DNA of 64,000 nucleotides, taken from contig NZ_JACHIG010000001.1 in the NCBI RefSeq assembly GCF_014203095.1, positions 1,240,001 to 1,304,000 of the forward strand. Direction: 5' to 3'. This DNA comes from Prosthecobacter vanneervenii. Lineage in GTDB: Bacteria; Verrucomicrobiota; Verrucomicrobiia; Verrucomicrobiales; Verrucomicrobiaceae. Position 1 is the first letter of the stretch. Each line of letters begins with the position of its first letter. The position numbers and the translations under genes are program-made. Below the pieces are notes generated by a model that made no database searches, was not told the DNA's origin, and saw only the letters and a program-made list of their open reading frames with translations. Of the stretch, positions 25,965 to 59,572 are shown one piece after another.

Positions 25965-27371
25965 ATGTCCGCTCTGAAACTCCACGACACCCTCTCCCGC
26001 ACCGACCGCGCTGTCACGCCACTCGACGGCAAGACCCTGCGCTTTTACTGCTGCGGACCCACGGTGTACGGCCCGGCGCACATCGGCAACTTCCGCACCT
26101 TCGTGGCGCAGGACGTGATGCGCCGCGTGGTGGAGGCCTCCGGCACGCCCACCCTCCATGTGCGCAACATCACCGACGTGGACGACAAAACCATCCGCGA
26201 CTCACAGAAGGCGGGGCAGAGCCTCACCGACTTCACCCAGGGCTGGACGCAGAAATTCCACGCCGACTGCGCCGCGCTGAATCTGCTGCCCCCGCACGTG
26301 GAGCCCAGCGCCGTGGCGCACATCCCGCATCAGGTGGCCATGATCGAAAAGCTCATCTCCGGCGGCCACGCCTACGCCGCTGCGGATGGCAGCGTGTACT
26401 TCCGCGTGGCCTCCTTCAAAGACTACGGCCGCCTCAGCCACCTGGAAGACCGCGAGCTGCGCCTCGGTGCCAGCGAGGCCGCCAGCGCCACCGACAGCGA
26501 CGAATATACCAAGGACTCGCTCACCGACTTTGCCCTCTGGAAAGCCCGCAAGCCCGAAGACGGCGCCAACTACTGGCCCAGCCCCTGGGGCGAAGGCCGC
26601 CCCGGCTGGCACCTGGAGTGCAGCGCCATGATTCTCGAATACCTCGGCGAGGACTTCGACCTGCACAGCGGCGGCGTGGACCTCATTTTCCCGCATCATG
26701 AAAACGAGATCGCCCAGAGCTGCTGCAGCACGCACGGGAAATTCGCGCATCACTGGATGCACGTGGCCCACCTGATGGTGGACGGCGGCAAGATGAGCAA
26801 GAGCATCGGCAATCTCTACACGCTGGCCGATCTGGCCGCGCGCGGCTACACCGCCGCCGAGGTGCGCTACGTGCTCATCTCCGGCCACTACCGCGCCCCG
26901 CTGAATTTCACCATGCACAGCCTGGACTCCGCACGTCAGGCCCTGCAAAAGCTGGCCAAGGCGGACAAGGCACTCGCCGCCGTCTCCCCTGCCCTCTCCG
27001 CTGCAAACTCTGCCGGCCCCTTTGCCGAAGCCTGGGAGGTGCTGCTCAATGACCTCAACGTCCCCGGCGCCATGGGCGGCATCTTTGGCGTGCTGAACAA
27101 GCTCAAGCCCGCCGCGCTCTCCGCCGACGAAGCCGCCGCCGCACGCAGCGGACTGCACTTCATGCTCGGCGCCCTCGGCATCGTGCTGCCCCCCGTGGCC
27201 GACGACGCCGTGGCCGACGTGCCCGCCGAGATCCAGGCCAAAGCCCAGCAGCGCTGGGACGCCAAGCAGGCCAAAGACTGGGCCGCCGCCGACACGCTGC
27301 GCAAAGAACTCGAAGCCGCCGGCTGGCTCATCAAGGACAGCAAGGAAGGTTTTACCGTCGTGCCGAAGTGA
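25965..27371 (+). CDS. cysS: Cysteinyl-tRNA synthetase
   Basis: 468 residues, the standard length. Start at 25965 gives [15 protein letters not shown], the usual CysRS N-terminus. Class I signatures: HIGN (39-42) in [11 protein letters not shown] and KMSKS (276-280). The zinc-site Cys (FYCCGPTV, Cys29/30), HLECSAM and [10 protein letters not shown] are present. It charges tRNA-Cys in the cytosol. The last ten codons ([10 protein letters not shown], stop) form part of a 71-bp unit repeated three more times just downstream, but the gene itself looks intact. Confidence 0.97.
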
Positions 27372-27624
27372 GGCTGCGAAAGCACGAGCGCAAATTTGGA
27401 CTGCGGTCGCGCAAGGAAGGCTTCACCGTGGTGCCAAAGTGAGGCTGCGAAAGCACGAGCGCAAATTTGGACTGCGGTCGAGCAAGGAAGGCTTCACCGT
27501 GGTGCCGAAGTGAGGCTGCGAAAGCACGAACGCAAATTTGGACTGCGGTCGAGCAAGGAAGGTTTTACCGTGGTGCCGAAGTGAGGCTGGGAAAGCCCGA
27601 GCGCAAATTTGGACTGCGGTCGCG
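27341..27624. repeat. Four tandem copies of a 71-bp unit containing the cysS 3' end
   Basis: Copies start at 27341, 27412, 27483 and 27554, each beginning CAAGGAAGG and ending with a TTTGGACTGCGGTCG segment. Copy 1 holds the last codons and stop of cysS. Because 71 is not a multiple of 3 the copies fall in different frames. The second half of each unit matches the left arm of the dispersed repeat family at 37.0, 41.4, 51.3 and 61.1 kb. Confidence 0.95.
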
Positions 27625-27700
27625 CAGTGAGGCACGAACGAAGCTACCGCTTTCGAGCGTCTCGTGGCGTGCGTGAGGTCAGCAGCCCCCACGCACCCAG
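27580..27700. repeat. Dispersed palindromic repeat family 1, degenerate copy
   Basis: TGCGGTCGCGCAGTGAGGCA and GAACGAAGCTACCGCTTTCG, the forward arm of family 1, joined directly to the inner end of the reverse arm (CGAGCGTCTCGTGGCG). It continues from the 71-bp tandem array. Confidence 0.75.
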
Positions 27701-28298
27701 CACAAGGTAGGGCGCTTGGTCCTCCAAGCGCCGTCGAACGTCTCGCAGCCCGCGCACGCTCCCCCCAGCCCCCGCGCACCCATAGCCCGCTCACTCACCA
27801 ACAGTCGCGGCTCCCTGCGAAAACCAATCCCTCCCAGCTCTCCCGCGTGGGCGCCAGCCTAGTGATCCGCACAACGCGAAGCCAGCCGAAGGCAATCCTC
27901 TGTGCGGCTCGATATACCCAGCGTTCTCACAGCCCCTTGGCATTCGCGCGTTTTTCTACGTGAAATAGCAAGCCTGTGCCGCCTGCTTTTTTGCATGCTT
28001 CCTGCATGACAAGAAATGAGCGCTGGATTCTGCGCTGCATGTTGTGGCTTGTTCATCAGGGTGCTTGCGTGCCGCACAGAGGACTGTGCGGACCACTATG
28101 CGGAGCCTTCCTTCGCATGCCTCGCGGCCTTCGCCCACCGTCCGGCCCACGGAAAGCGGTAGCTCCGTTCGTGCCTCACTGCGCGACCGCACTCCATATT
28201 CTGAGGTGCCCCCCATCTCGTTTTGTTTTGCTTTTTTCCGCAGGTCCGCAGAAAAAGCTGCGTTTATCTGCTCTCTCATTCCACCCACCACTCCGACC
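27625..28298. other. Gene-free repeat region between cysS and the DUF1080 gene
   Basis: Apart from family 1 and 2 repeats nothing coding is recognisable. A reverse-oriented half copy of family 1 (AAAGCGGTAGCTCCGTTCG to GCGCGACCGCACTCC) sits at about 28142-28190. The open frames here are repeats read through and do not look like proteins. Confidence 0.65.
27861..28097. repeat. MITE-like element, family 2, copy A (237 bp)
   Basis: The left end AGTGATCCGCACA...TCCTCTGTGCGG (27861-27907, with 22 bp between the two parts) is the inverted counterpart of the right end CCGCACAGAGGACTGTGCGG followed by ACCACT (28072-28097). No ORF inside that looks genuine. A second copy lies at 31933-32132. Confidence 0.7.
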
Positions 28299-29095: not shown

Positions 29096-29166
29096 CCCCC
29101 CATCCCCCAGCGAAAAACCTCTACCGCCGCGAATTTCCCGGCGACCTCGGCATCTCCGCCGTGGCG
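29096..29166 (+). pseudogene. Fragment of a DUF1552 gene 5' end
   Basis: About 70 bp nearly identical to 30482-30551, the start region and first 18 codons of the DUF1552 gene (AAAAACCTCTACCGCCGCGA then GACCTCGGCATCTCCGCCG). The ATG has become GCG and a stop follows soon after, so it cannot be expressed. It lies between the DUF1080 gene and the serine protease. Confidence 0.8.
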
Positions 29167-29210: not shown

Positions 29211-30161
29211 TCAGCGGGCCCCAGAACTCTCACGTTTTCCAGCCAGAAAGAAAAACGCCCGGTGCCGCGCCCGGTGCTTCTCAATGAGCGATTGAATCCA
29301 CGCGGAGTCGGGAGCCACGGAAATGCCGCGATAATGCCGCATCTTGTCACGCCCGAGCTCGAAGCTGGCCCGCGTGTTGATCCCGAGCACCAGACCGTGC
29401 TTTTCGATCAACGGGCCGCCGCTGTCTCCGGGTGTCAGCTCCGCAGTGTGCTCCAGCGGCCGCCAGCGGGCACCGGGAGGATTTGCCATCACGGGGCCCA
29501 GGCGGGTCACTGAGCCGCCACTGTAGGCGATCACAGGGCGTTTCTCGCTCGCATTCCCGCAGGTAAAGATCTGCGAGCCGTTTTTCAGTTCGTCAAATCC
29601 AGCGAGCTTGTAAGTCTGGTACGGCGTCACGGGAGCGTGGATCAGGGTGAGATCGGGCTCGCCCTTTTCGACGCGACCGCGCCAGACAATGTCCGGCGTC
29701 AGGCAATGGAGCTCGCCGTCCGAAGCCAGGGCGACAAGGGCAAGCCTGGGCCTGTGCGCGCAATGACTCGCGGTCAGGAAATAGCCATCCGATGTCACCG
29801 GCACCGCCATGCCTTTGCCCAGCGCGCCTTTCGTCTCCGCGACAATCTCAAAGGTTTTTGACCTGTCTGTCTCCGCGCTTTTGACGAGGGTCACGTCCAT
29901 GGCGCTGCGGGACTGAAACAAGACCGCCCACCGGAGGGCCGCATAGTCCAGCGCCCTGGCGTCTCCGATCTTCCGATGTGTCCATTCCCTGAGGCCGGCA
30001 GGCCGCCGTGCATTCAAAATGGCCGTGGCGCGCTGCATATCCCGTTGGCTCAGCGGCAGCGCCTCGGGCTCTGCCATGCGGCCACCGCGAAAAGGGACGC
30101 ACGATTCGAGCAGGGCTCCCACGCTCAGAATGCCCAAGGCCTGAAAAAAAGAGAACCTCAT
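29211..30161 (-). CDS. Trypsin-like serine protease, exported
   Basis: 316 residues from the ATG at 30161; that start gives a hydrophobic signal (MRFSFFQALGILSVGALLESC) with a poor lipobox-like end, and an ATG at 30254 would add 31 polar residues. The triad is visible: TASHC (His133), GEPDLTL (Asp170) and GDSGGP (Ser247). Spacing fits the chymotrypsin/trypsin-like S1 family, close to stress-type or V8-like bacterial proteases. No PDZ domain, so not a typical DegP. It probably cleaves proteins in the periplasm or at the membrane. It is divergent from DUF1552. Confidence 0.82.
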   Translation of the reverse strand: MRFSFFQALGILSVGALLESCVPFRGGRMAEPEALPLSQRDMQRATAILNARRPAGLREWTHRKIGDARALDYAALRWAVLFQSRSAMDVTLVKSAETDRSKTFEIVAETKGALGKGMAVPVTSDGYFLTASHCAHRPRLALVALASDGELHCLTPDIVWRGRVEKGEPDLTLIHAPVTPYQTYKLAGFDELKNGSQIFTCGNASEKRPVIAYSGGSVTRLGPVMANPPGARWRPLEHTAELTPGDSGGPLIEKHGLVLGINTRASFELGRDKMRHYRGISVAPDSAWIQSLIEKHRARHRAFFFLAGKRESSGAR

Positions 30162-30494
30162 AGGCCGATCCGCCGCCCTCGGTTGAGAAGAAACAGGATG
30201 TCCTGACGATTCTGCAGAGCCGAAGTGATTTTGATGATCGTTTTCATTGCTCAATTTCTCTGCACGTCATCCACTTCAAAGACACAGCCACGCGTATTAC
30301 CGGCAGCGTCTTTGAATAGCGAGACAAATCCGCACGGAAGCATGCTCCACTCACGCCAAGCGCCCGCTTTTCTCCTTCTGGGAGGCTGTGGCTGACGCAG
30401 CCCCGTATTATGCTTGAGTTTCACCCCCGTACGGCCATGAGGTGTGCGCAAGATGCGCCGCTGCGTGGCGTAGCTTTCATACCCCCATCCCCCC
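30162..30494. other. Divergent promoter region between the serine protease and DUF1552 genes
   Basis: About 330 bp. Nothing coding is recognisable; if the protease starts at the earlier ATG (30254) the gap shrinks to 240 bp. No clear promoter elements could be fixed. Confidence 0.45.
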
Positions 30495-31811
30495 ATGAAA
30501 AACCTCTACCGCCGCGAATTTCTCCGCGACCTCGGCATCTCCGCCGGGGCGCTGCCGTTTCTTGCCGGGCTGCCCAGTCTGACGGGTGCGCCCACGCCGC
30601 AGCGGAAGCAGAGGCTCATCATCATGTTTTCGCCGAACGGCACGCTGCCGAATGAGTTCTGGCCGGACCAGGAAGGGGCGGACTTCAGCTTCAAGTCCAT
30701 CCTCAAGCCGCTGGAGGCATTCAAGGACAAGATGCTCATCCTCCACGGCATCGCCAACAAGGTGAAGGGCGATGGCGACAGCCACATGCGCGGCATGAGC
30801 TGCCTCCTAACCTGCGACGAACTGCTCAAGGGCAACATCATGGGCGGCGGCGGCAATCCCGCCGGCTGGGCCAGCAGCATCTCCATCGACCAGGAGCTGA
30901 AAAACTTCCTGCAAAGCCGCAAGGAAACCAAAACCCGCTTTGGCTCGCTGGAATTCGGCGTGGCCGTGCCGGAGCGCGCCGATCCCTGGACCCGCATGTG
31001 CTACGCCGGCGGCAACCAGCCCGTGGCCCCCATCGACGACCCGCACCAGATTCTCAAAAAGGTGTACGGCAAGATGAAGGACAAGGACAGCCTCGTCAGC
31101 ATCCTGGATGACGTGCGCGACGACCTGAAACGCATCTCCTCCAAGCTCAGTGCGCGCGACAAAGCCCTGCTGGACCAGCACATGACCCTCGTCCGCAGCA
31201 TGGAGCAGGACCTTGCCGAAGCCGACAAGCAGGGCAAGCTGGCCCACCCCGTGCCGCAGGTGGACCCCAGCATCGAGCTGGTGAACGACAACACCCCGCA
31301 GATCAGCCGCATCCAGATCGATCTCCTCGTCAACTCCCTGGCCAACGACATGGCGCGCATCGGCACTCTGCAGTACATGCGCAGCGTGGGCATGGCGCAG
31401 ATGCGCTGGCTCGGCGTGGAGGAGGGCCACCACTCCCTCTCCCACGACCCCGACGACAAGAAGGACAGCTACGAAAAGCTGCTCAAAATCAACACTTGGT
31501 TCGCCGGAGAATTCGCCTACCTGGCCAAGCGCCTCAGCGAGACCCCCGAAGCCACCGGCGGCGGCAGCATGCTGGACAACACCCTGCTCGTCTGGACCAA
31601 CGAACTCGGCAAGGGCAACACCCACACCCTGGACAACATCCCCTACATCATGATCGGTGGCGGATGCGGATTCAAGATGGGCCGCAGCCTCAAGTTTGAC
31701 AAAGCCGCCCACAACCGCCTCTGGATGGCCGTGGCTCAGGGCATGGGCCACGACCTGCAGACCTTTGGCAAAAAGGAGCTGTGCGAGGGCGGCGCGCTGG
31801 CCCTGAGCTAG
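30495..31811 (+). CDS. DUF1552 domain-containing protein (unpaired)
   Basis: 438 residues with a twin-arginine-type leader (YRREFLRDLGISAGALPFL). The mature part (KQRLIIMFSPNGTLPNEFWP, KMLILHGIANKV, GVEEGHHSLSHD, NTLLVWTNELGKGNTHTLDN) fits DUF1552. Unlike the copy at 7046-8320 no DUF1592/DUF1588 cytochrome gene is beside it; a small copy of its own 5' end lies upstream at 29096. Role unknown, presumably exported by Tat. Confidence 0.87.
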   Translation: MKNLYRREFLRDLGISAGALPFLAGLPSLTGAPTPQRKQRLIIMFSPNGTLPNEFWPDQEGADFSFKSILKPLEAFKDKMLILHGIANKVKGDGDSHMRGMSCLLTCDELLKGNIMGGGGNPAGWASSISIDQELKNFLQSRKETKTRFGSLEFGVAVPERADPWTRMCYAGGNQPVAPIDDPHQILKKVYGKMKDKDSLVSILDDVRDDLKRISSKLSARDKALLDQHMTLVRSMEQDLAEADKQGKLAHPVPQVDPSIELVNDNTPQISRIQIDLLVNSLANDMARIGTLQYMRSVGMAQMRWLGVEEGHHSLSHDPDDKKDSYEKLLKINTWFAGEFAYLAKRLSETPEATGGGSMLDNTLLVWTNELGKGNTHTLDNIPYIMIGGGCGFKMGRSLKFDKAAHNRLWMAVAQGMGHDLQTFGKKELCEGGALALS

Positions 31812-31932: not shown

Positions 31933-32132
31933 AGTGGTCCGCACAACGCGAAGCCAGCCGAAGGCAATCCTCTGTGCGGTTAGTGAGCCCCCTGAACTGC
32001 TAGACATGAGCGAGCTTCGTAGAAACCCAATGCTGATTGTCTGATGTTGTGGTGAAGGGCCTGCGCGGAGGGTGTGGGCAGAGAAGCACGTACTGGGCAG
32101 CGCGTGCCGCACAGAGGACTGTGCGGACCACT
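31933..32132. repeat. MITE-like element, family 2, copy B (200 bp)
   Basis: Left end AGTGGTCCGCACA...TCCTCTGTGCGG (31933-31979) and right end CCGCACAGAGGACTGTGCGG plus ACCACT (32107-32132) are nearly identical to those of copy A at 27861-28097. The middle differs from copy A and does not code. It occupies most of the gap between DUF1552 and the small gene at 32281. Confidence 0.72.
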
Positions 32133-32280
32133 TTGCTGGCGCATGCTCGTGTAACCCAGAAGCATGTCTGCTCCCCAGCCCCGCCAAGACTCGAATCGCC
32201 CTGCCCCTCCTCCCGCCTTGGCGAGGAATCCTTAACCTCTCCAAAACAAACAACTGTTTACTTGAACAGCATTCAAATGA

Positions 32281-33097: not shown

Positions 33098-34138
33098 AAG
33101 GCCGCATTCCCACGGAATTCACCGCTAGCGGACGCAGCCGGTCATCCAGTATCCGGGGCATTCCTGCCCCGTCTGATCAAACGCCGCAGCAGCCCAACCA
33201 TGCCCAAGCCAGGACCCGACTGGCAGCCGCTAGCCATTGCTGCATCTCGAATTGTAACGTTTTACCCGTTTCTATAACCAGCACCTCCCAAGCCATCCAC
33301 CGGCAAAACCCACCCACTCTCAGCGCCCCCAAAGCAAGATATGGTTCCCACCTCTCCCACAGCCTTCGGCACCTGCAACCCATCCCTTCGGATCCTGGAT
33401 GAGACAGCGTGGGGGCTGTATTTCGGATAACGCCCAGCCAGCCACTTCATCGTTTCCACCCACGCGGCAGCCACGCTGGGGACTGATCGCAGGCATCATC
33501 TCGGGCCTGTGACGGGCACCGGTCGGAATGGACAAGTTACTCACCTTGCGGACTGAAACGAGAGCGGCCCCATTGTAATGATAGAAAGGTTTGAAAAACG
33601 TTATCATTGATGCTTAAACGATTCATTACCAATCTTGTGAATAAGAACCCTCAGGCATCACAGCGTTACATAAAAGTTACTGATGGCAGCAAATCCCAGG
33701 AAAGCTGCAGACTGTTCACAGACTAACAAGCTGTGAATACTTCCCCTTTGGAACGCCTCAAGAGTAACGTTTTTAACGATACACTTTCCTCAATTCTCGC
33801 CTCGTCCTTGCCCAGCAATCGCAGGCCGGAGCGGCTCGGCACCCAAGGAAAGGGCAGCAGTGAGGGTGTCGGGTGTGCGGATCAGGAATGAGCGGAGGCT
33901 TGTCAGGGACGACCCCAAAACGTTACCATAATATCGTTTCATTTTACCCCAAGCTAAGGAGAACACAGGACGTGCGATGGCGCTCTCGGAGAGAGCGCAC
34001 CACTCCGCGCCGGGCGGCAGTGGGCTGGGGGGCCTGCGGGAGGCGGCTGCTTGGGGACAAGCAGCCCAACCCTGCTCCCGGCATGCGCCGCGCACCTGGG
34101 TGCTTGGGAAGGGGGGCTATCTCCGGCCCGCTGTCTGG

Positions 34139-34290
34139 CGGAGGGGGATCGTCCCGATCCCTCACGCTCTCGCAATACCCCGCATTCTCGCCTTTCCACA
34201 AAACCGAGCCTCCCGCCCCTCCCAGCGCCCGCGCGTCTCCGCGAAGCCGCTGCAGGTAGGGGGATCAAGATGATCACCCTCCGTCGGCAC
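34139..34290. repeat. GATC-centred dispersed repeats, family 3 (two short forms)
   Basis: GGGGGATCGTCCCGATCCCT at about 34141-34160 and GGGGGATCAAGATGATCACC at about 34259-34278. The same two palindromic cores recur around 39.57, 39.63, 42.18, 56.47 and (diverged) 63.75 kb. Confidence 0.6.
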
Positions 34291-35584: not shown

Positions 35585-35652
35585 AACTTTCATCCGAGCT
35601 GCAAAGTCAGGCTGGACACTCCAGCGCAGCAATGCCAATTGGAGGACCACCC

Positions 35653-36939
35653 ATGGCCATCCAAGCTTTCCGTCCTGTCCTCATTACCCGCAATACCTGC
35701 CGAATCTGCGGCTCCCGCAGCCTCACCCCTGTCGTCAGCCTGGGAGATCAGTTCATCGGCGGAGTTTTGGCGAGTGCAGACGGCAGTGCGCTGGTGAAGC
35801 GCAAGGTGCCGCTGGACCTCGTGCGCTGCGACCCCTCCCAGGACGAAAACGCCTGCGGCCTGGTGCAGATGCGCCACTCCGTGCCGCCCAAGGTGCTCTA
35901 CCACCGCTACTATTACGAGTCCGGCATCAATCAGTCCATGATCGACAACCTCACCGGCATCACCAAGCTGGTGGAGGAAACCGTGACGCTGAAGCCCAAG
36001 GACATCGTGCTCGACATCGGGTGCAACGACGGCACCCTGCTCTCCAGCTACCGCACGCAGGGCCTGCGCCACATCGGCATCGACCCCTCAGACGTGGCCC
36101 TCAAGGCGCGCGCCAAGGGCTTCACCGTGGTGAATGACTTTTTCACCGCCCGCGCCTTCCGCAGCGAGCACCCCACGGAAAAGGCCCGCGTGGTCACCAG
36201 CATCTCCATGTTCTACGATCTGGAGAACCCGCACGCCTTTGTGCAGGACATCGCCGATGTGCTGGCCACGGACGGCATCTGGATCCTGGAGCAGAGCTAC
36301 CTGCCCGCCATGCTGGACATCAACAGCTTTGACACCATCTGCCACGAGCATCTGGAATATTACTCGCTGGCCGTGCTGGAGCGCCTGTTTGGCGATCATG
36401 GGCTCGAAGTGATCGACGTTCATCTCAATGATGTGAACGGCGGCAGCTTCCGCCTGGTGGTGGCCAACGCCGGCCAGGTCAAGCCCTCCCGCGAGGCCGC
36501 CGCCCGCGTGCAGGAGCTGCGCATCCGCGAGTTTGAGATGGCGCTGGACTCCGACGCGCCCTACGCCGTCTTCCGCGACAACATCGAGCGCATCCGCACC
36601 GATCTGACCGCCTTCCTGCAAAAGGCCAAGGCCGAAGGCAAGGTGGTGCACGGCTATGGTGCATCGACCAAGGGCAGCACCACGCTGCAATACTGCAATG
36701 TGACGCCCGACCTGGTGCCCTTCATCGCCGACCGCAATCCCATCAAGTGGGGCAGCTACACCATCGGCACGCACATCAAGATCATCTCCGAGGAGGAATC
36801 CCGCGCTGCCAAGCCGGACTACTACCTCGTGCTGCCGTGGCACTTCATGCCCGAGTTCCTGAAGCGCGAAAGCGACTTCCTGGCGCGCGGCGGCAAGTTC
36901 GTGGTACCGATGCCGCAGGTGCATCTGGTGGGTGCGTGA
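35653..36939 (+). CDS. SAM-dependent sugar C-methyltransferase (zinc-binding N-terminus)
   Basis: 428 residues. I start at 35653 because GGAGG lies 7-9 bases before it, whereas an in-frame ATG at 35632 has none. Order: N-terminal zinc-site motif CRICG (Cys16, Cys19); SAM-binding VLDIGCNDGTLL (119-130); C-terminal C-methyltransferase domain with HGYGASTKGSTTLQYC and ending PMPQVHLVGA. This is the NDP-hexose C-3-methyltransferase architecture (TylCIII/TcaB9-like). It probably methylates a keto-sugar nucleotide made with help of the gene upstream. The last 40 bp of its coding sequence also occur in a pseudogene at 38045-38084. A terminator follows. Confidence 0.87.
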   Translation: MAIQAFRPVLITRNTCRICGSRSLTPVVSLGDQFIGGVLASADGSALVKRKVPLDLVRCDPSQDENACGLVQMRHSVPPKVLYHRYYYESGINQSMIDNLTGITKLVEETVTLKPKDIVLDIGCNDGTLLSSYRTQGLRHIGIDPSDVALKARAKGFTVVNDFFTARAFRSEHPTEKARVVTSISMFYDLENPHAFVQDIADVLATDGIWILEQSYLPAMLDINSFDTICHEHLEYYSLAVLERLFGDHGLEVIDVHLNDVNGGSFRLVVANAGQVKPSREAAARVQELRIREFEMALDSDAPYAVFRDNIERIRTDLTAFLQKAKAEGKVVHGYGASTKGSTTLQYCNVTPDLVPFIADRNPIKWGSYTIGTHIKIISEEESRAAKPDYYLVLPWHFMPEFLKRESDFLARGGKFVVPMPQVHLVGA

Positions 36940-36965
36940 TGCGCGCAGATAGGTCTTTTCAAAAC

Positions 36966-36997
36966 AGCTCCGGTGCCGCAAGGACCGGAGCTTTTTT
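36966..36997 (+). terminator. Rho-independent terminator of the methyltransferase gene
   Basis: AGCTCCGGT (36966-36974) pairs with ACCGGAGCT (36984-36992) and is followed by a T-run (36992-36997). It lies 26 bp past the stop codon. Confidence 0.9.
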
Positions 36998-36999
36998 AT

Positions 37000-37235
37000 T
37001 TGGAGTGTGGTCGCGGAGGGAGGAACGACCGCAGCTACCGCTTTTCGTGGGCCGAGTAGAGATGCGAGTGCCTGGGAGTTTTCGAAGGCAGAGGCTCTCG
37101 CCGGGCATGTGACACTCGCAGGCCGGGGAGCCCACGCAGGCCACGAGACGCTCGAAAGCGGTGGCTCCGATGCAGGCTTGCGCCTCGCATCTGCGCAACC
37201 GCACTCCAAATTCGCGCTCGTGCTTGCGCCACCTT
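37000..37235. repeat. Dispersed palindromic repeat family 1, complete copy
   Basis: Forward arm GAGTGTGGTCGCGGAGGGAG...GCTACCGCTTTTCG (37002-37044) and reverse arm CGAAAGCGGTGGCTCCGATG...CAACCGCACTCC (37155-37207) are imperfect reverse complements. The 110-bp middle holds GATGCGAGTGCCTGGGAG and CTCGCAGGCCGGGGAGCCC, shared with other copies. It follows directly after the terminator. Confidence 0.85.
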
Positions 37236-37287
37236 TACGGCACTCTTGAGCCCGGCCCCGCCCCCTCACCCTTTCACCCATTCTGCA

Positions 37288-37767
37288 ATGAACCAGCCCA
37301 AGGTATACGACAAAGCAAAGTGGCACTTTGAGACCGTGGACCAGCATGGGCTGCCCGAGGAGCATGCCTCGCATCACATCGTCTTTTTCTTTCGCTGGTG
37401 CATTGAAAACGACTTCGTCAGCGAGTGGCTGCGAACCGAATGGCCTGAAGACTATGCCGCAGTGCGCGACGGCCAGCTCAGTGCCCTGGACTACTTTGAG
37501 AAGCTGGACCTCTGCCTCATCGATGACATGCTCACGGATGAGGGCAATGCCTTTGCCTCGGCTTACTTTGAGTACGAAACCGGACGTTACATCGACGATC
37601 TACTTGCCACCCTCAAAGGAGACCTGCCTTCGGAGTATCACATCCCCTTCAACGAGGATACCTATGGGCGTCTCAGGCAGGTGATGGACAGTCGCTATGC
37701 CGCGTGGAAGACCGGAAACGTGGCCAGTGTGTCCAAAAAGCGCAAGTGGTGGCAGTTCTGGAAATGA
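37288..37767 (+). CDS. DUF7832 domain-containing protein
   Basis: 159 residues, cytoplasmic. The core YDKAKWHFETVDQHGLPEEH then ASHHIVFFFRWCIENDFVSE, with LTDEGNAFASAYFEYETGRY further on and LPSEYHIPFNEDTYGRL near the end, fits DUF7832, a small family of unknown function whose members often look like immunity-type or accessory proteins. The C-terminus is basic and Trp-rich (KKRKWWQFWK). No toxin partner is visible. It lies between a family 1 repeat and an ABC-transporter pseudogene. Confidence 0.7.
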   Translation: MNQPKVYDKAKWHFETVDQHGLPEEHASHHIVFFFRWCIENDFVSEWLRTEWPEDYAAVRDGQLSALDYFEKLDLCLIDDMLTDEGNAFASAYFEYETGRYIDDLLATLKGDLPSEYHIPFNEDTYGRLRQVMDSRYAAWKTGNVASVSKKRKWWQFWK

Positions 37768-37787
37768 ATGCGGCTGCAGCGCATCCC

Positions 37788-38046
37788 TTCCACATCCGCT
37801 TGAATCCCGCGCCACGCTCGCTCGTCTAGCCTTTGCATGGAAGACAAGCCCGCTCCCATGACCAACACCAGCGCCCTGCGGCGGCTGCTGGGGTTTGCGC
37901 AGGGGCATTGGCGGATCGCGCTGCTGAAGCTGGCGCTGGCAGTGGGGACACGGGGCTGATCTATGTGTTTCCGGGGATTGTGCGCTGGTTTGTGGATGAG
38001 ATCATCCCGCAGCGACGCGGCGATCTGATCCGGCGCATGGGCGGCA
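37788..38046. repeat. 259-bp direct repeat, copy 1
   Basis: Matches 39120-39378 without gaps and with only scattered substitutions. It covers a short 5' flank (TTCCACATCCGCTTGAATCC...) plus the first part of an ABC-transporter gene. The two copies bracket the hypothetical gene 38125-39009. Confidence 0.92.
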
Positions 38047-38087
38047 AGTTTGTGGTACCGATGCCGCAGGTGCATCTGGTGGGCTGA
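37837..38087 (+). pseudogene. Chimeric pseudogene: ABC-transporter N-terminus joined to methyltransferase C-terminus
   Basis: Starts MEDKPAPMTNTSALRRLLGF like the intact exporter at 56539-58323 (MTSAPEPMTNTSALRRLLGF). After ALAVG a single missing G in a G-run shifts the frame into a stop (TGA at 37958-37960). Coding similarity then continues in another frame (LIYVFPGIVRWFVDEIIPQR) to GGK, where it switches at a GGCGGCA junction to the last residues of the neighbouring methyltransferase (KFVVPMPQVHLVG, stop). No function expected. Confidence 0.88.
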
Positions 38088-38124
38088 GCTGCTTTTCCAA
38101 GCCAAGGTTTGTGCTGAGAGCGAA

Positions 38125-39009
38125 TCATTTGGCGCCACTCAGCCAATCCTTGGGAACGAAGAGCCGGAGTGCGAGACCGGCGGCTGTGGGATCGATCCCA
38201 CAAACGAAACCTGGACCACCAATCCAAAAACACCCCTCGGCTTCGCAAGCAGAGTGAGCGTCAGGGGCCAAATATGCGAAGCATTCATCCGATACGCGAA
38301 TGACACTGCTTGCATTGGTAGTCACATTCCAGCGAAACAGCTGAGCTTGATCGATCAGAAACAGAGTTTCTTTGTCTGGATTGGGCAGAATTTTTAACAA
38401 GCCGCTTCCGTTGATTTGAAACGCATTCAGCGGCTTGAGCTGAGGAGTCCCGCCTGGAACAAGCTCTAAAAAATCAAAAGCATACTTTTCTGAATCATAT
38501 GTCGTCGCGAAATACCGGCCTTTTACGGTCGCCAGTGTGACAATTTGGTTCTTTGTCAGCAAAGTTTTCCTTTCTCCTGCATTGGAGAAGAGCCAGCAGC
38601 GATTGCCAAACTCGCCGTAGGCATAGGCGCAGAGCCAGTCTTTTCCCACGGGCATCATGTGAGTGGGTTCTTTGAACATTTTGTTGATGCGTGTCATGTC
38701 CGTATCGAAGCTGACCTTCTGCGGACGCCACTCCTGGGTTTCTGGATAGGCGAGCCTGCGAACCCGAACGGCAAGCTTGCCGTCTCGAACGGTGACGTCA
38801 CACATCGGCCATCGATCCACCGGAGCGATGAAGTTATTGCCCAGTGCCTTCCATGCGTCCTGAACCTCGCTGGCCGTCACCTTGTAAAACTCGGACAGGG
38901 TGAGCGCGGCAGGTGTGTGCTCTTCAGCCACCACACCTTGCGCAACAACCCCAACCCAACAAATGATGATCGTCAGCAAGGGAACGCTGCGAAATGCGCA
39001 TGAATTCAT
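38125..39009 (-). CDS. Hypothetical exported protein between direct repeats
   Basis: 294 residues with a signal peptide (SVPLLTIIICWVGVVAQGVVAEE). The mature part shows repeating blocks such as WLCAYAYGEFGNRCWLFSNA, GRYFATTYDSEKYAFDFLEL, LLKILPNPDKETLFLIDQAQ and ECFWIGGPGFVCGIDP-like ends, suggesting a beta-propeller, but no family is recognised. Base composition is less GC-rich than its surroundings. It is flanked by the 259-bp direct repeats (37788 and 39120), one of which also holds a pseudogene, consistent with insertion or a duplication-linked rearrangement. Confidence 0.7.
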   Translation of the reverse strand: MNSCAFRSVPLLTIIICWVGVVAQGVVAEEHTPAALTLSEFYKVTASEVQDAWKALGNNFIAPVDRWPMCDVTVRDGKLAVRVRRLAYPETQEWRPQKVSFDTDMTRINKMFKEPTHMMPVGKDWLCAYAYGEFGNRCWLFSNAGERKTLLTKNQIVTLATVKGRYFATTYDSEKYAFDFLELVPGGTPQLKPLNAFQINGSGLLKILPNPDKETLFLIDQAQLFRWNVTTNASSVIRVSDECFAYLAPDAHSACEAEGCFWIGGPGFVCGIDPTAAGLALRLFVPKDWLSGAK

Positions 39010-39119
39010 CAGAAACTGAGGATGTCATATTGGCGGTTGAACTGCCAGCTTTTTGCATGGCGGCTCGACTATTCCTCTTCCAAACAGGTTTGCGCGACGA
39101 ACACCAACATGTGCTTGGA

Positions 39120-39378
39120 TTCCACATCCGCTTGAATCCCGCGCCACGCTCGCTCGTCTAGCCTTTGCATGGAAGACAAGCCCGCTCCCATGACCAACAG
39201 CAGCGCCCTGCGGCGGCTGCTGGGGTTTGCGCGGGGGCACTGGCGGATCGCGCTGCTGCAGCTGGCGCTGGCAGTGGGGGCACGGGGCTGATCTATGTGT
39301 TTCCGGGGATTGTGCGCTGGTTTGTGGATGAGATCATCCCGCAGCGACGCGGCGATCTGATCTGGCGCATGGGCGGCA
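39120..39378. repeat. 259-bp direct repeat, copy 2
   Basis: Same sequence block as 37788-38046 (offset 1332 throughout, no indels). Confidence 0.92.
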
Positions 39379-39472
39379 TGAGGCGCTGCTGCAAGCCTGC
39401 CCGCATTACCGCGAGATGGCCTCACTGGCCTTTGAGGGCGATGAGGATACAGGTTTTTTAAAAACGGCATGA
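39169..39472 (+). pseudogene. Internally deleted ABC-transporter pseudogene
   Basis: Begins MEDKPAPMTNSSALRRLLGF, carries the same one-base deletion in the G-run after ALAV as the copy at 37837, reads on in the shifted frame through VDEIIPQRRGDLIWRMGG, then jumps to the last 30 residues of the exporter (EALLQACPHYREMASLAFEG then DEDTGFLKTA, stop). About 495 codons are missing. Similarity to the intact gene continues past the stop (GGTGGCGCGGCGTGAGCCCG), so both original ends are kept. Confidence 0.9.
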
Positions 39473-39705
39473 GGTAGGTGGCGCGGCGTGAGCCCGTGGG
39501 CGAGTGAAGCGCTGGAAGGCGGGGGCTTTGCGGTAACGCGGGTGCGTGGGACGTTGCGTGCACGTGAGGGATCGGGACGATCCCTCTCCGCCGGAGGCTT
39601 CGCCCACGGCAGCTTCGTCCCAGCGACGGAGGGGGATCATCTTGGTCCCCACACAGGGCGCTTGTTTGCACCCATCCAAGCCCTCAGCGCAGCGCCTCGC
39701 CCCCC
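39473..39705. repeat. Exporter 3' flank plus GATC-centred family 3 repeats
   Basis: 39473-39525 mirrors the sequence after the intact exporter gene (56495-56540). Then GAGGGATCGGGACGATCCCT (about 39567) and GGGGGATCATCTTGGTCCCC (about 39630) are family 3 cores. No gene. Confidence 0.65.
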
Positions 39706-56538: not shown

Positions 56539-58323
56539 TCATGCCGTTTTTAAAAAACCTGTATCCGCATCGCCCTCAAAGGCCAGTGCGGCCATCTCGC
56601 GGTAATATGGGCAGGTTTGCAGCAGCTCCTCATGTCGGCCATGCGCCAGGATGCGCCCGTGATGCAGCACGTAGATCACATCCGCAGACACGATGGTGCT
56701 CAGCCGATGGGCGATCACGAGGCTGGTGCGGTTGGCGCGCAGGCGTGCCAGCGCGTCCTGGATCAGGCGCTCCGACTTCACATCCACGGCGGAGGTGGCC
56801 TCGTCCAGCAGCAGGATGGGCGCGTCTTTGAGAAAGGCGCGTGCCAGAGCCAGGCGCTGGCGCTCGCCGCCGCTCAGCAGTACGCCGCGCTCTCCCACCT
56901 CGGCATCCAGCCCCTCGGGCAGCCGCTGCACAAAGTCCGCCGCACTCGCCTCCCGCAGCGCATGCCACAGAGCGTCATCGTCCGCGTCCGGCCTGCCCAG
57001 CAGCAGATTCTCCCGCACCGTGCCCGCAAATAGAAACGCCTCCTGCGTCACATATGCCAGCGCCTGCCGCAACGTGCGCTTGCTCATCTTTTCCAAAGGC
57101 TGTCCGTCCAGCCAAATGCGGCCGCTCTGCGGATCGTAAAAACGCGCCAGCAGCTGGAAGACCGTGCTCTTTCCCGATCCCGTGGCCCCCACGATGGCCA
57201 CCGTCTGGTGCCGCGCCGCGTGCAGCGAGATGCCATGCAGCACCGGCTTGTCCGCACGGTAGCTGAAGCTCACGTTTTCAAACGAGATCTCTCCACGGAT
57301 GGCCGCAGGCTCCGGCGCGGCGCCTGCATCCAGATCCTCCTCCTGCTCGTCCTCCAGAATGGCAAAGACGCGCTTGGCCGCAGCCAGTCCGCTGAGCAGC
57401 GTCTGGTTCACCCCATGCAGGCGGGAGATGGGCTCATACAGAAAGCCGACGAGCAGCAGAAACTCCATCAGCCGCCCCGCTGTCATGGCCCCCTGCACGC
57501 ACCACCACGAGCCCGCCATCAGCAGCAGCACCAGGCCGGCGTTTCCCAGCAGCGTCATGGATGGCGCATAAAAAGCCCACGCCGCCATCAGCCGCGTCTG
57601 CCGCTCCTGCAGCCGCTGGCTGGCCGCCAGAAACTTCCACTGCCGCATCTCCTCCGCCGTGTAGCTCTTGATCTGGCGGATGCCCGTGATCGTGTCGTGC
57701 AGCGTGGCATTCAGCGCGCTCGTGGCCTCCCGCGCCGCCGTGGCACGCGGAGACACCCAGCGCGAGTAGATCCACCCGCCCGCCGCGATGAACGGCGTGG
57801 GCGCCAGCACCAGCAGCGCCAGCTTCATGTCCGCCACCAGCATGACGATGGCCGTGACCACGATCTGCAGCAGGGCGGTGCTGCCCTGCTCGATGCCCTC
57901 CAAAATGACGCGCTGTGTGGCAGGCACATCATCGGCCAGCTTGGTCAGGATGTCTCCCGTGCTCTGATGGTCAAACCACCCCAGCGGCAGCCGCGCCATC
58001 TTGCGGTGCAGCCGCCCGCGCAGGTCGGTGATCATGCGCTGCTCAAAGGTGCAGTTCACCCGCGTGCGCACATAGAAGAGCCCCTCCCGCAGCGCAAAAG
58101 CCAGCAGCGCCAGCCCGCCCGCGCGCCAGATCAGATCGCCGCGCCGCTGGGGGATGATCTCATCCACAAACCAGCGCACCACCCCTGGAAACACATAGAT
58201 CAGCCCCGTGCCCCCCACCGCCAGCGCCAGCTGCAGCAGCGCGATCCGCCAGTGCCCCCGCGCAAACCCCAGCAGCCGCCGCAGGGCGCTGGTGTTGGTC
58301 ATTGGCTCGGGCGCGGAAGTCAT
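56539..58323 (-). CDS. ABC exporter, fused permease and ATPase (MsbA/lipid A-like type)
   Basis: 594 residues from the ATG at 58323; the decayed copies at 37837 and 39169 start seven residues before the shared MTN in the same way, supporting this start over an earlier ATG at 58554. The permease half (about 1-320) has six membrane segments. The ATPase half shows Walker A GATGSGKST (379-387), Q-loop Gln427, signature LSGGERQRL (483-491), Walker B ILLLDEA (503-509) and an IAHRLST H-loop. It functions as a homo- or heterodimer in the inner membrane; substrates of relatives are lipids, peptides or drugs. No partner half-transporter is adjacent. Confidence 0.92.
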   Translation of the reverse strand: MTSAPEPMTNTSALRRLLGFARGHWRIALLQLALAVGGTGLIYVFPGVVRWFVDEIIPQRRGDLIWRAGGLALLAFALREGLFYVRTRVNCTFEQRMITDLRGRLHRKMARLPLGWFDHQSTGDILTKLADDVPATQRVILEGIEQGSTALLQIVVTAIVMLVADMKLALLVLAPTPFIAAGGWIYSRWVSPRATAAREATSALNATLHDTITGIRQIKSYTAEEMRQWKFLAASQRLQERQTRLMAAWAFYAPSMTLLGNAGLVLLLMAGSWWCVQGAMTAGRLMEFLLLVGFLYEPISRLHGVNQTLLSGLAAAKRVFAILEDEQEEDLDAGAAPEPAAIRGEISFENVSFSYRADKPVLHGISLHAARHQTVAIVGATGSGKSTVFQLLARFYDPQSGRIWLDGQPLEKMSKRTLRQALAYVTQEAFLFAGTVRENLLLGRPDADDDALWHALREASAADFVQRLPEGLDAEVGERGVLLSGGERQRLALARAFLKDAPILLLDEATSAVDVKSERLIQDALARLRANRTSLVIAHRLSTIVSADVIYVLHHGRILAHGRHEELLQTCPYYREMAALAFEGDADTGFLKTA

Positions 58324-58586
58324 GGCATCGAGACATTCTATAGCATATGGCCAAACAGATTTCCGAAAAGGATACGTGGAGACACCCGGCGGAGGCTTGA
58401 GGACAAGCATCCCCACCTCTCGCGCCAGGCGCGCGCATGCCCAGCGCAGGCAGGGCTGGCTGCCCTGAGGCAGCTTCGTTTTCACACAGCCTTTCAAGTG
58501 CGCACCGCCCGGCCTTGGATGGCGGTGGCGGGTTGCGGTGTCCAGGGGGGGCATCCCCCCGGCCGATGATACCAGATCCTAGCAGC

Positions 58587-59207
58587 TTAGGCAGCCAGGG
58601 GCTGCACCTGACGCAGGGGGATGCGCTGCTGGTGGCGGAGGGAGGCTTCGGTATTGTAGGCGGCCAGGAGCAGGAGGCTGAAGCCGAGATCGCTCACGAG
58701 GGAGTTGATGAGGAAGCTCCAGGTGGGGGCGTAGCCGGGCTCTCCGGTGGTCAGGGCCTGCAGCAGACCGGAGAGGGTCTTGGCATAGGCGGGGGCGCTG
58801 ATCCAGGAAATGGTGTTGGTGACGAGGTAGAAGGCGATGGTGCAGCCCGCGACGCCGAGAAGGCTGCCCACGAGGCTGAGCTGTCCGCGCCAGCGTCCGG
58901 CCAGCCAGGAAGCGAGCGCAAAGCATGGATAGACCGAGAGAGCCTCCCAGTGCAGCACGGAGGCGGGGCCGGTGGCGGCGGCATCGATGCCCACCAGCAT
59001 CAGCGGGATGAGCAGGAAGGTGACGCGACGCGGAAAGACGAGCGTGCCGGTGAAGGCCAGCGCCATCCAGGGGGTGAAGTTTTCCAGCGCTTCAGTGGTG
59101 ATGAAACCTTTCAGCCGGGCCCAGCGATAGACGGCGGCAGCGGCGATGAGGAGCAGCGGCAGCAGCAGGGCGCGTGTGGAGGCAGGACGGGAATCGGGGG
59201 AAGTCAT
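58587..59207 (-). CDS. DUF6580 family membrane protein
   Basis: 206 residues from the ATG at 59207 with about five membrane segments. Family signatures: ENFTPWMALAFTGTLVF, TNTISWISAPAYAKTLSGLL then QALTTGEPGYAPTWSFLINS, matching DUF6580, an integral membrane family resembling ECF-transporter S components. The substrate, if any, is unknown. It stands alone between the ABC exporter and a glutaredoxin, both also on the minus strand but well separated. Confidence 0.8.
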   Translation of the reverse strand: MTSPDSRPASTRALLLPLLLIAAAAVYRWARLKGFITTEALENFTPWMALAFTGTLVFPRRVTFLLIPLMLVGIDAAATGPASVLHWEALSVYPCFALASWLAGRWRGQLSLVGSLLGVAGCTIAFYLVTNTISWISAPAYAKTLSGLLQALTTGEPGYAPTWSFLINSLVSDLGFSLLLLAAYNTEASLRHQQRIPLRQVQPLAA

Positions 59208-59572
59208 GGCGGGCCGAAGATGCAGGTGTTTGGGAGTATGGAAAGGATGAATTGTGACTGATGCGCTACGAATCACGCAGAGTGCGCGGTGGGGTAAACT
59301 TTGGCAATTCATCGCACCCAGCAAGGCATCCAGGCCTGTCAGCTCTCGAAGTCCGTGAGCCCCTTTGCAAGTGATGATGGTTTGAGGCGTGCCTGCACCC
59401 GGGGGCATGGCGGCTGTGCCAGGCCCCGCACACGGAGTGTGCGGACCACGCCGCGCTGGGTGGACATGCTGCGCTGGGTGGTCTGTAAGCGCCACGAGAT
59501 GGGCTGAAAAGCGCCGGGCTGGCACGCCACGGGCACGCTCGCCCCCCTTCCCCGCAAGGATGGGGGCCGGGC
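59208..59572. other. Intergenic region upstream of the DUF6580 gene
   Basis: About 365 bp with no gene. It contains a single family 2-like end (CGCACACGGAGTGTGCGGAC, about 59431-59450) next to ACCACGCCGCGCTGGGTGG. Confidence 0.55.

Follow-up and report, generated by a model that had tools for sequence, protein, structure and literature searches.

We propose, with a probability of roughly three in four, that an ABC exporter gene moved away from its ancestral place beside a methyltransferase gene (MT), that the original copy decayed, that the decayed copy was doubled locally and that the doubling left two slots with differing cargo. The locus has two exporter remnants (c1 and c2) with a common frameshift, joint bases, a fused MT fragment, a tree in which the remnants are sisters, an ancestral synteny kept by relatives, and an intact copy at which a conserved upstream element is missing. 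It lies in the window (the whole stretch of 64,000 nt that was analysed and to which the coordinates refer; Table 1), within a 1.37-Mb contig of a 6.66-Mb genome in 33 contigs. The comparison set consisted of 48 genus genomes, and the named near relatives were largely Prosthecobacter and Verrucomicrobiaceae or Verrucomicrobia MAGs.

According to the proposed history, the exporter would originally have stood directly after MT. A copy that began at codon 5 and extended about 51 nt beyond the stop would have been placed about 17 kb away on the opposite strand, where it gained a new start and upstream region and is flanked by a passenger-repeat (NIDO/PATR) protein gene and a DUF6580 gene; it would have stayed intact and presumably took over the function. 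The original copy, free to decay, would have lost one G from its slippage-prone run of six and, presumably in that order, 1480 nt between two CTGGCGC repeats. The decayed copy would then have been doubled head to tail over the 7-bp GGCGGCA, with the deletion joint meeting the MT 3' end, to give MT, slot 1 and c1, followed by an MT tail, slot 2 and c2. The different cargo would stem either from an exchange in one slot after the tandem duplication or from the unequal joining of two strain alleles, both being conjectural routes. No intermediate state of this history was seen in the relatives.

Table 1. Features of the exporter locus and of the relocated copy (window coordinates)
Feature	Position	Strand	Basis or remark
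SAM-dependent C-methyltransferase gene (MT), upstream of the exporter in the ancestral order	35632..36939	+	PF08484/PF13489
Hairpin then T run 3' of MT	36964..36991	+	pattern search, at most 3 mismatches
Dispersed intergenic repeat in first slot	36998..37229		query 36930-37300, 76 own-genome matches including itself
First-slot cargo gene, DUF7832 protein	37288..37767	+	PF25191
Remnant c1: 49 nt native upstream, frameshifted first 67 codons, ten post-joint bases	37788..38046	+
Upstream element, c1 copy	37800..37829	+	pattern matches
44-nt copy of MT 3' end fused to c1	38040..38083	+	against 36889-36932, 43/44
Second-slot cargo gene orf294	38125..39009	-	G021 and G042 have it at the same position and on the same strand with respect to MT
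Remnant c2: native upstream, frameshifted 5' part, 1480-nt internal deletion, native 3' end	39120..39472	+
Upstream element, c2 copy	39132..39161	+	pattern matches
Intact ABC exporter, relocated copy	56539..58323	-	PF00664 and PF00005, ATPase motifs
New 5' region of relocated exporter, without the conserved element	58324..58586	-	flank comparison

A head-to-tail joint between c1 and a second MT end

The two remnants agree at 253 of 259 positions (6 differences, about 98%; the c2 part being 39120-39378), a similarity well beyond chance, and their identity begins 49 nt 5' of the start codon (37788 and 39120), the native upstream element included. Each copy also carries private substitutions in the alignment. 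A search of the own genome with the remnant returned five matches, namely the query, two stretches of the intact gene, the MT end and a 27-nt match on another contig, and the whole-genome search found no additional exporter copy beyond the remnants and the intact gene.

The exporter match of c1 does end (at 38046), as expected from the claim in the earlier note that one copy had lost everything after codon ~69, but c1 itself runs on into the MT 3' end. The junction of c1 with the MT fragment is the shared 7-bp GGCGGCA (38040-38046); at random c2/MT junctions, microhomology of at least 7 bp occurred in 0.10% of 200,000 trials. The locus thus has the head-to-tail joint with short identity of a tandem duplication, but not the equal content of its units: orf294 is confined to the second unit, and the DUF7832 block lies in the first. 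From the MT fragment through its stop and orf294 into c2 (38040-39391), the sequence is collinear with both G021 (82.7% identity across 1039 nt) and G042 (72.3% across 1124 nt), so the right half (MT tail, orf294, c2) shows the layout of these two genomes; the left half, made up of MT, the DUF7832 block and c1, repeats that layout in part and carries other cargo. The hairpin after full-length MT was found in 2 of the 48 genomes, the only one besides the own genome being G001, where it also follows MT; the terminator scan, whose limit its 9-base loop exceeds, did not list it. MT itself ends in Gly-Ala-stop here and in Gly-stop in the 14 relatives printed.

Possible exchange of cargo in the slot between MT and the exporter

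Among 17 relatives, the gap between MT and the exporter, here called the slot, measures 38 bp in eight, 98-107 bp in four, where a short hairpin-like element was recognized by eye, and 323, 359, 816, 1076 and 1125 bp in one each. Each of the three longest gaps (816, 1076 and 1125 bp) holds an antisense gene, which is orf294 in G042 and G021 but of another kind in G001; as in an exchangeable slot, different genes (two antisense kinds in three genomes) stand between the same conserved neighbours. The frame in the G001 slot (L026:7534-8348) is a different antisense one, 249 codons from stop to stop. The own genome holds two such slots in tandem, with different cargo. A DUF7832 gene also occurs in G001, G046 and G002, on contigs other than that of MT, and orf294 had no Pfam or NCBIfam match.

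Between the own genome and G021, the nucleotide identity is 82.7% for orf294 and 87.0% for MT, and between G021 and G042 it is 73.4% and 92.4%, respectively; these orf294 values, from three sequences only, are out of step with the neighbour genes and hint that the cargo may move laterally. Of the three genomes with orf294 in this slot, two (the own genome and G021) have a broken exporter next to it, which may be chance with so few cases, and a sequence error could underlie the stop in G021. The MT hairpin matches G001 and the flank of the MT fragment matches G021, a mixture that a simple tandem duplication does not by itself explain but for which a cargo exchange, before or after the doubling, would account. 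No traces of a lost first orf294 were found elsewhere in the window. The import of a whole G021-type locus was also considered and is weakened by the own bases (GTGGTACCG) that the MT fragment shares with full MT. More tentatively, and at somewhat less than even odds, the slot might in this genus be an exchangeable one-gene cargo site swapped by recombination in the flanking conserved genes, with two strain alleles of differing cargo joined head to tail over the 7 bp in the own genome; c1 and c2 would then be merged alleles, and the exporter would have survived only by escaping without its gene-specific element.

The same joint might instead reflect an insertion by template switching, in which repair synthesis copied the DUF7832 block and 259 nt of c2 and then returned to the MT 3' end, leaving an insert of about 1.1 kb with a 44-nt target duplication. 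The 44-nt direct copies that flank 36933-38039 and the 7-bp microhomology at the right joint fit such an event, as does a nearby second insertion of similar layout (a 70-bp gene-start ghost at 29097-29166 before an antisense protease gene), and microhomology template switching is described for E. coli in the available part of one report (PMC3161906). However, several switches would be required, the left edge of c1 (37788) is not assessable for microhomology as the source of the block is lacking, and both slot edges here equal the slot edges of the relatives, which random insertion points would not give. We therefore regard template switching as rather unlikely and retain a local doubling, with either of the two routes to the differing cargo.

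The intact exporter as the probable relocated copy

The intact exporter combines a membrane domain (PF00664, 130.3 bits) with a fused ATPase (PF00005, 111.6 bits), each above its gathering score, and its Walker A, signature, Walker B and H-loop motifs are all present. These domains and motifs liken it to MsbA-type lipid/polysaccharide ABC exporters, from which it differs in scoring below the cut-off of TIGR02203 (MsbA lipid A exporter; 436.8 versus 602 bits), so that no substrate is assigned to it.

In 17 of the 23 relatives read (25 stretches or loci), the exporter follows MT, and a GDP-fucose-synthase-like gene usually lies 5' of MT; G055, G059, G041, G054, G016 and G014, in whose fetched stretches MT and the exporter are not adjacent, stand outside the slot counts. 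The MT-linked exporters of these 17 relatives are open over 582-591 codons in 15 and open to the contig end (240 codons) in G045, and that of G021 has an in-frame TAG at codon 94, where the relatives have Glu, the same base being present in the named record L113 (locus L034). The 5' flank of both c1 and c2 matches the native exporter upstream region of the relatives, whereas that of the intact gene does not: its codons 2-4 and upstream region are unlike the native form, and the native match begins at codon 5. Judged from these sequence comparisons, the remnants mark the ancestral site and the intact gene appears to be the relocated copy. This corrects the direction of the exporter copying in the earlier note.

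The neighbourhood of the intact gene agrees with a relocation, since the ancestral neighbourhood lies elsewhere and another neighbour occupies the new site: in 7 of the 7 relatives printed, the DUF6580 gene (58587-59252) is followed by a solute-binding-protein gene and not by an exporter. The own counterpart of that solute-binding-protein gene lies about 15 kb off in the opposite orientation, a displacement that places the relocated exporter at the edge of a rearrangement. No relocated second exporter copy was seen in G021, and because the exporter is interrupted there, a relocated copy may be no precondition for loss at the native site, provided that the stop is not a sequence error.

Exact matches to the upstream element TTGAAT-N18-GTCTAG numbered 21 in 19 of the 48 genomes, and 18 of them stand before an exporter gene (16 relatives, c1 and c2). 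The element is kept in 16 of the 17 MT-linked relatives, G001 being without it; it lies 7-10 nt 5' of the start codon in the 13 relatives measured and before c1 and c2, and the other relatives that keep it are G040, G045 and G060. Since TTGAAT partly overlaps the MT stop in compact loci, its conservation is best judged on the eight longer-gap relatives that keep it. The exact pattern search found none before the intact exporter. The element is a putative promoter that the sigma-70 scan does not list, and a literature search on leaderless promoters in Verrucomicrobia gave no match.

We also considered a simple inversion that would have left an exporter copy at each end. Compared with all six relatives whose fetched stretch holds both blocks, the own genome has the sugar-gene/MT block inverted with respect to the DUF1552 block, and the first gene to the right of the block has close homologues on other contigs in 4 of 9 relatives. 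We set this inversion aside because no exporter piece lies at the other end and the genes right of the turned block were not found in the fetched stretches of the relatives. Inverted repeats (78%) at 34134-34205 and 39524-39595 coincide with the edges of the turned block.

Tree and relative timing of the copies

A tree of 259 columns gave the topology (intact,(c1,c2)), with supports of 100/100 for the grouping with the intact gene and 100/98 for c1 and c2 as sisters apart from this functional gene, and with one conflicting site. The 3' part of G021 is absent from the tree as its contig ends inside the gene, and the G021 exporter identities refer to 354 codons past its premature stop. The clade of c1 and c2, sister to the intact gene, bears out the earlier order of events, namely an exporter duplication, the frameshift and then a second, local duplication. 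At the conflicting site, the first Ser/Thr codon (AGC/ACC), c1 sides with the intact gene, and c2 with 14 of the 16 relatives, a conflict that may reflect one homoplasy or a conversion tract.

Dating by substitutions among the three copies, a check proposed with that order, gave 17 differences in 257 sites between c2 and the intact gene and 6 in 188 between c1 and c2; on these figures, based on 188 to 257 sites, the relocation would, under equal rates, date back about twice as far as the doubling, or somewhat further. The branch lengths were 0.071 for the stem of c1 and c2, 0.033 for c1, 0.0045 for c2 and 0.0023 for the intact gene.

The new site and new upstream region of the intact gene would also be expected if it had arrived by transfer from a very close relative, the native gene decaying later, and the cargo genes seem laterally mobile (orf294, 82.7% between the own genome and G021 versus 73.4% between G021 and G042). 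However, the intact and remnant copies are mutually closest, the intact gene and c2 being 93% alike and either being at most 80% alike to any of 16 relatives, and no donor was found when the remnant DNA was searched against the 48 genomes, which makes a transfer improbable compared with a move within the genome.

A common frameshift and a probably common deletion

The intact gene has a run of six G (GTGGGGGGCACG) where c2 has five (GTGGGGGCACG); the run of c1 (GTGGGGACACG) is as long as that of c2, with an additional G to A change. Both remnants have a TGA at codon 41 (37957-37959 in c1 and 39289-39291 in c2). The pair therefore shares a disabling mutation, the G loss with its codon-41 stop, and the observation in the earlier note that the same G is missing from both stands. 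The six-G run is absent from all 16 aligned relatives, so it probably arose in the own lineage before the G was lost; as such a run is slippage-prone, the common loss is by itself weak evidence. A comparison with related genomes for a copy without the frameshift, likewise proposed earlier, found no other genome with two exporter starts among the 48, and hence no case of the kind named there as a refutation.

In c2, codon 67 (nt 201) abuts the final 104 nt of the gene with its stop codon, and 1480 nt (about 493 codons) are missing; c2 keeps 51 nt of the 3' flank of the intact gene, and similarity extends to 39523. This agrees closely with the earlier reading that one copy had lost about 495 internal codons and kept its native 3' end and flank. 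Both deletion edges are CTGGCGC in the intact gene (7-bp microhomology; c2 joint at 39362-39368), and microhomology of at least 7 bp occurred at 0.24% of random junctions within the exporter (200,000 trials). The remnant c1 holds the same post-deletion bases as c2 (ATGGGCGGCA) and reaches the same edge before diverging. Given the same breakpoint and the ten bases from beyond the joint in c1, a deletion before the local doubling is most likely; on this sequence evidence, the 1480-nt deletion is probably, perhaps at nine to one, common to c1 and c2 and older than the doubling. The c1 evidence for the deletion joint amounts to about ten bases, for which the alternative is that the gene had no deletion here but underwent a double change from GC to AT.

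The earlier note had instead envisaged that c1 and c2 were duplicated with the frameshift but otherwise at full length and were then truncated independently. Their right-hand joints do differ, and two substitutions would suffice to derive the ten bases that follow codon 67 from the undeleted gene. Two random breakpoints fell at most 10 nt apart in 1.2% of control trials, and both copies have this same breakpoint and the same post-deletion bases, so we favour a single deletion over independent ones, which we consider quite improbable. A 7-bp match is too short for the usual assembly misjoin, and an assembly artefact joining two strain variants, although the genome is in 33 contigs and the two slots resemble two alleles, is the least probable reading, given a joint of only 7 bp, private substitutions in the copies and a site inside the 1.37-Mb contig.

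Relation to known systems

Every step is a known kind of event, and the history is one of ordinary genome decay (compare the available parts of PMC3161906, PMC3411829 and PMC4033161). As in nonfunctionalization after gene duplication, one copy is intact, the other is frameshifted and deleted, and more change lies on the decayed branch; here, however, decay struck the copy at the native, syntenic site, and the survivor is the displaced copy, which has no conserved element. With the microhomology rearrangements of E. coli Lac and the Salmonella junctions, as far as the accessible portions of these reports go (PMC3161906 and PMC3411829), the locus shares a head-to-tail arrangement and short identities where new junctions formed (7 bp at each of the two here), and it differs in that the events are inferred from one genome and the cargo is not the same in the two units. 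Replacement flexible genomic islands are exchanged via flanking core genes, according to the part available of PMC4033161, and likewise have different genes per genome in the same place between conserved genes, whereas the slot here is tiny (38 bp to about 1.1 kb, at most one gene) and species were compared, not strains. Among literature titles on Prosthecobacter pseudogenes and on gene relocation with pseudogenes, none points to this locus.

The locus offers a clean case in which the order of four events (relocation, frameshift, deletion and doubling) could be worked out at a single place and checked against relatives. It also cautions that the copy which stays intact need not be the original, and that a gene described as 'truncated' may run into a fragment of the gene next to it. 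Two by-products, the slot and the upstream element specific to this gene (kept in 16 relatives), lend themselves to testing.

Other repeats and fragments in the window

The 70-bp ghost is 91% identical to the start of the DUF1552 gene (30495-31811), and the antisense gene between the ghost and the full gene (29211-30254) encodes a trypsin-like protease, a layout like that of the MT fragment; the corresponding stretches of six relatives, which contain the genes on either side, gave no match to the protease. The repeat family of the first slot also clusters at 41.3-42.1, 51.2-51.8 and 61.0-62.0 kb. Near-identical pieces (97-98%) lie about 4 kb apart at 27861-27907 and 31933-31979 and at 28067-28101 and 32102-32136, and their GTCCGCACA/TGTGCGG ends resemble a dispersed palindromic repeat. 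At 27339-27693, a 71-bp unit is repeated in tandem in about five copies.
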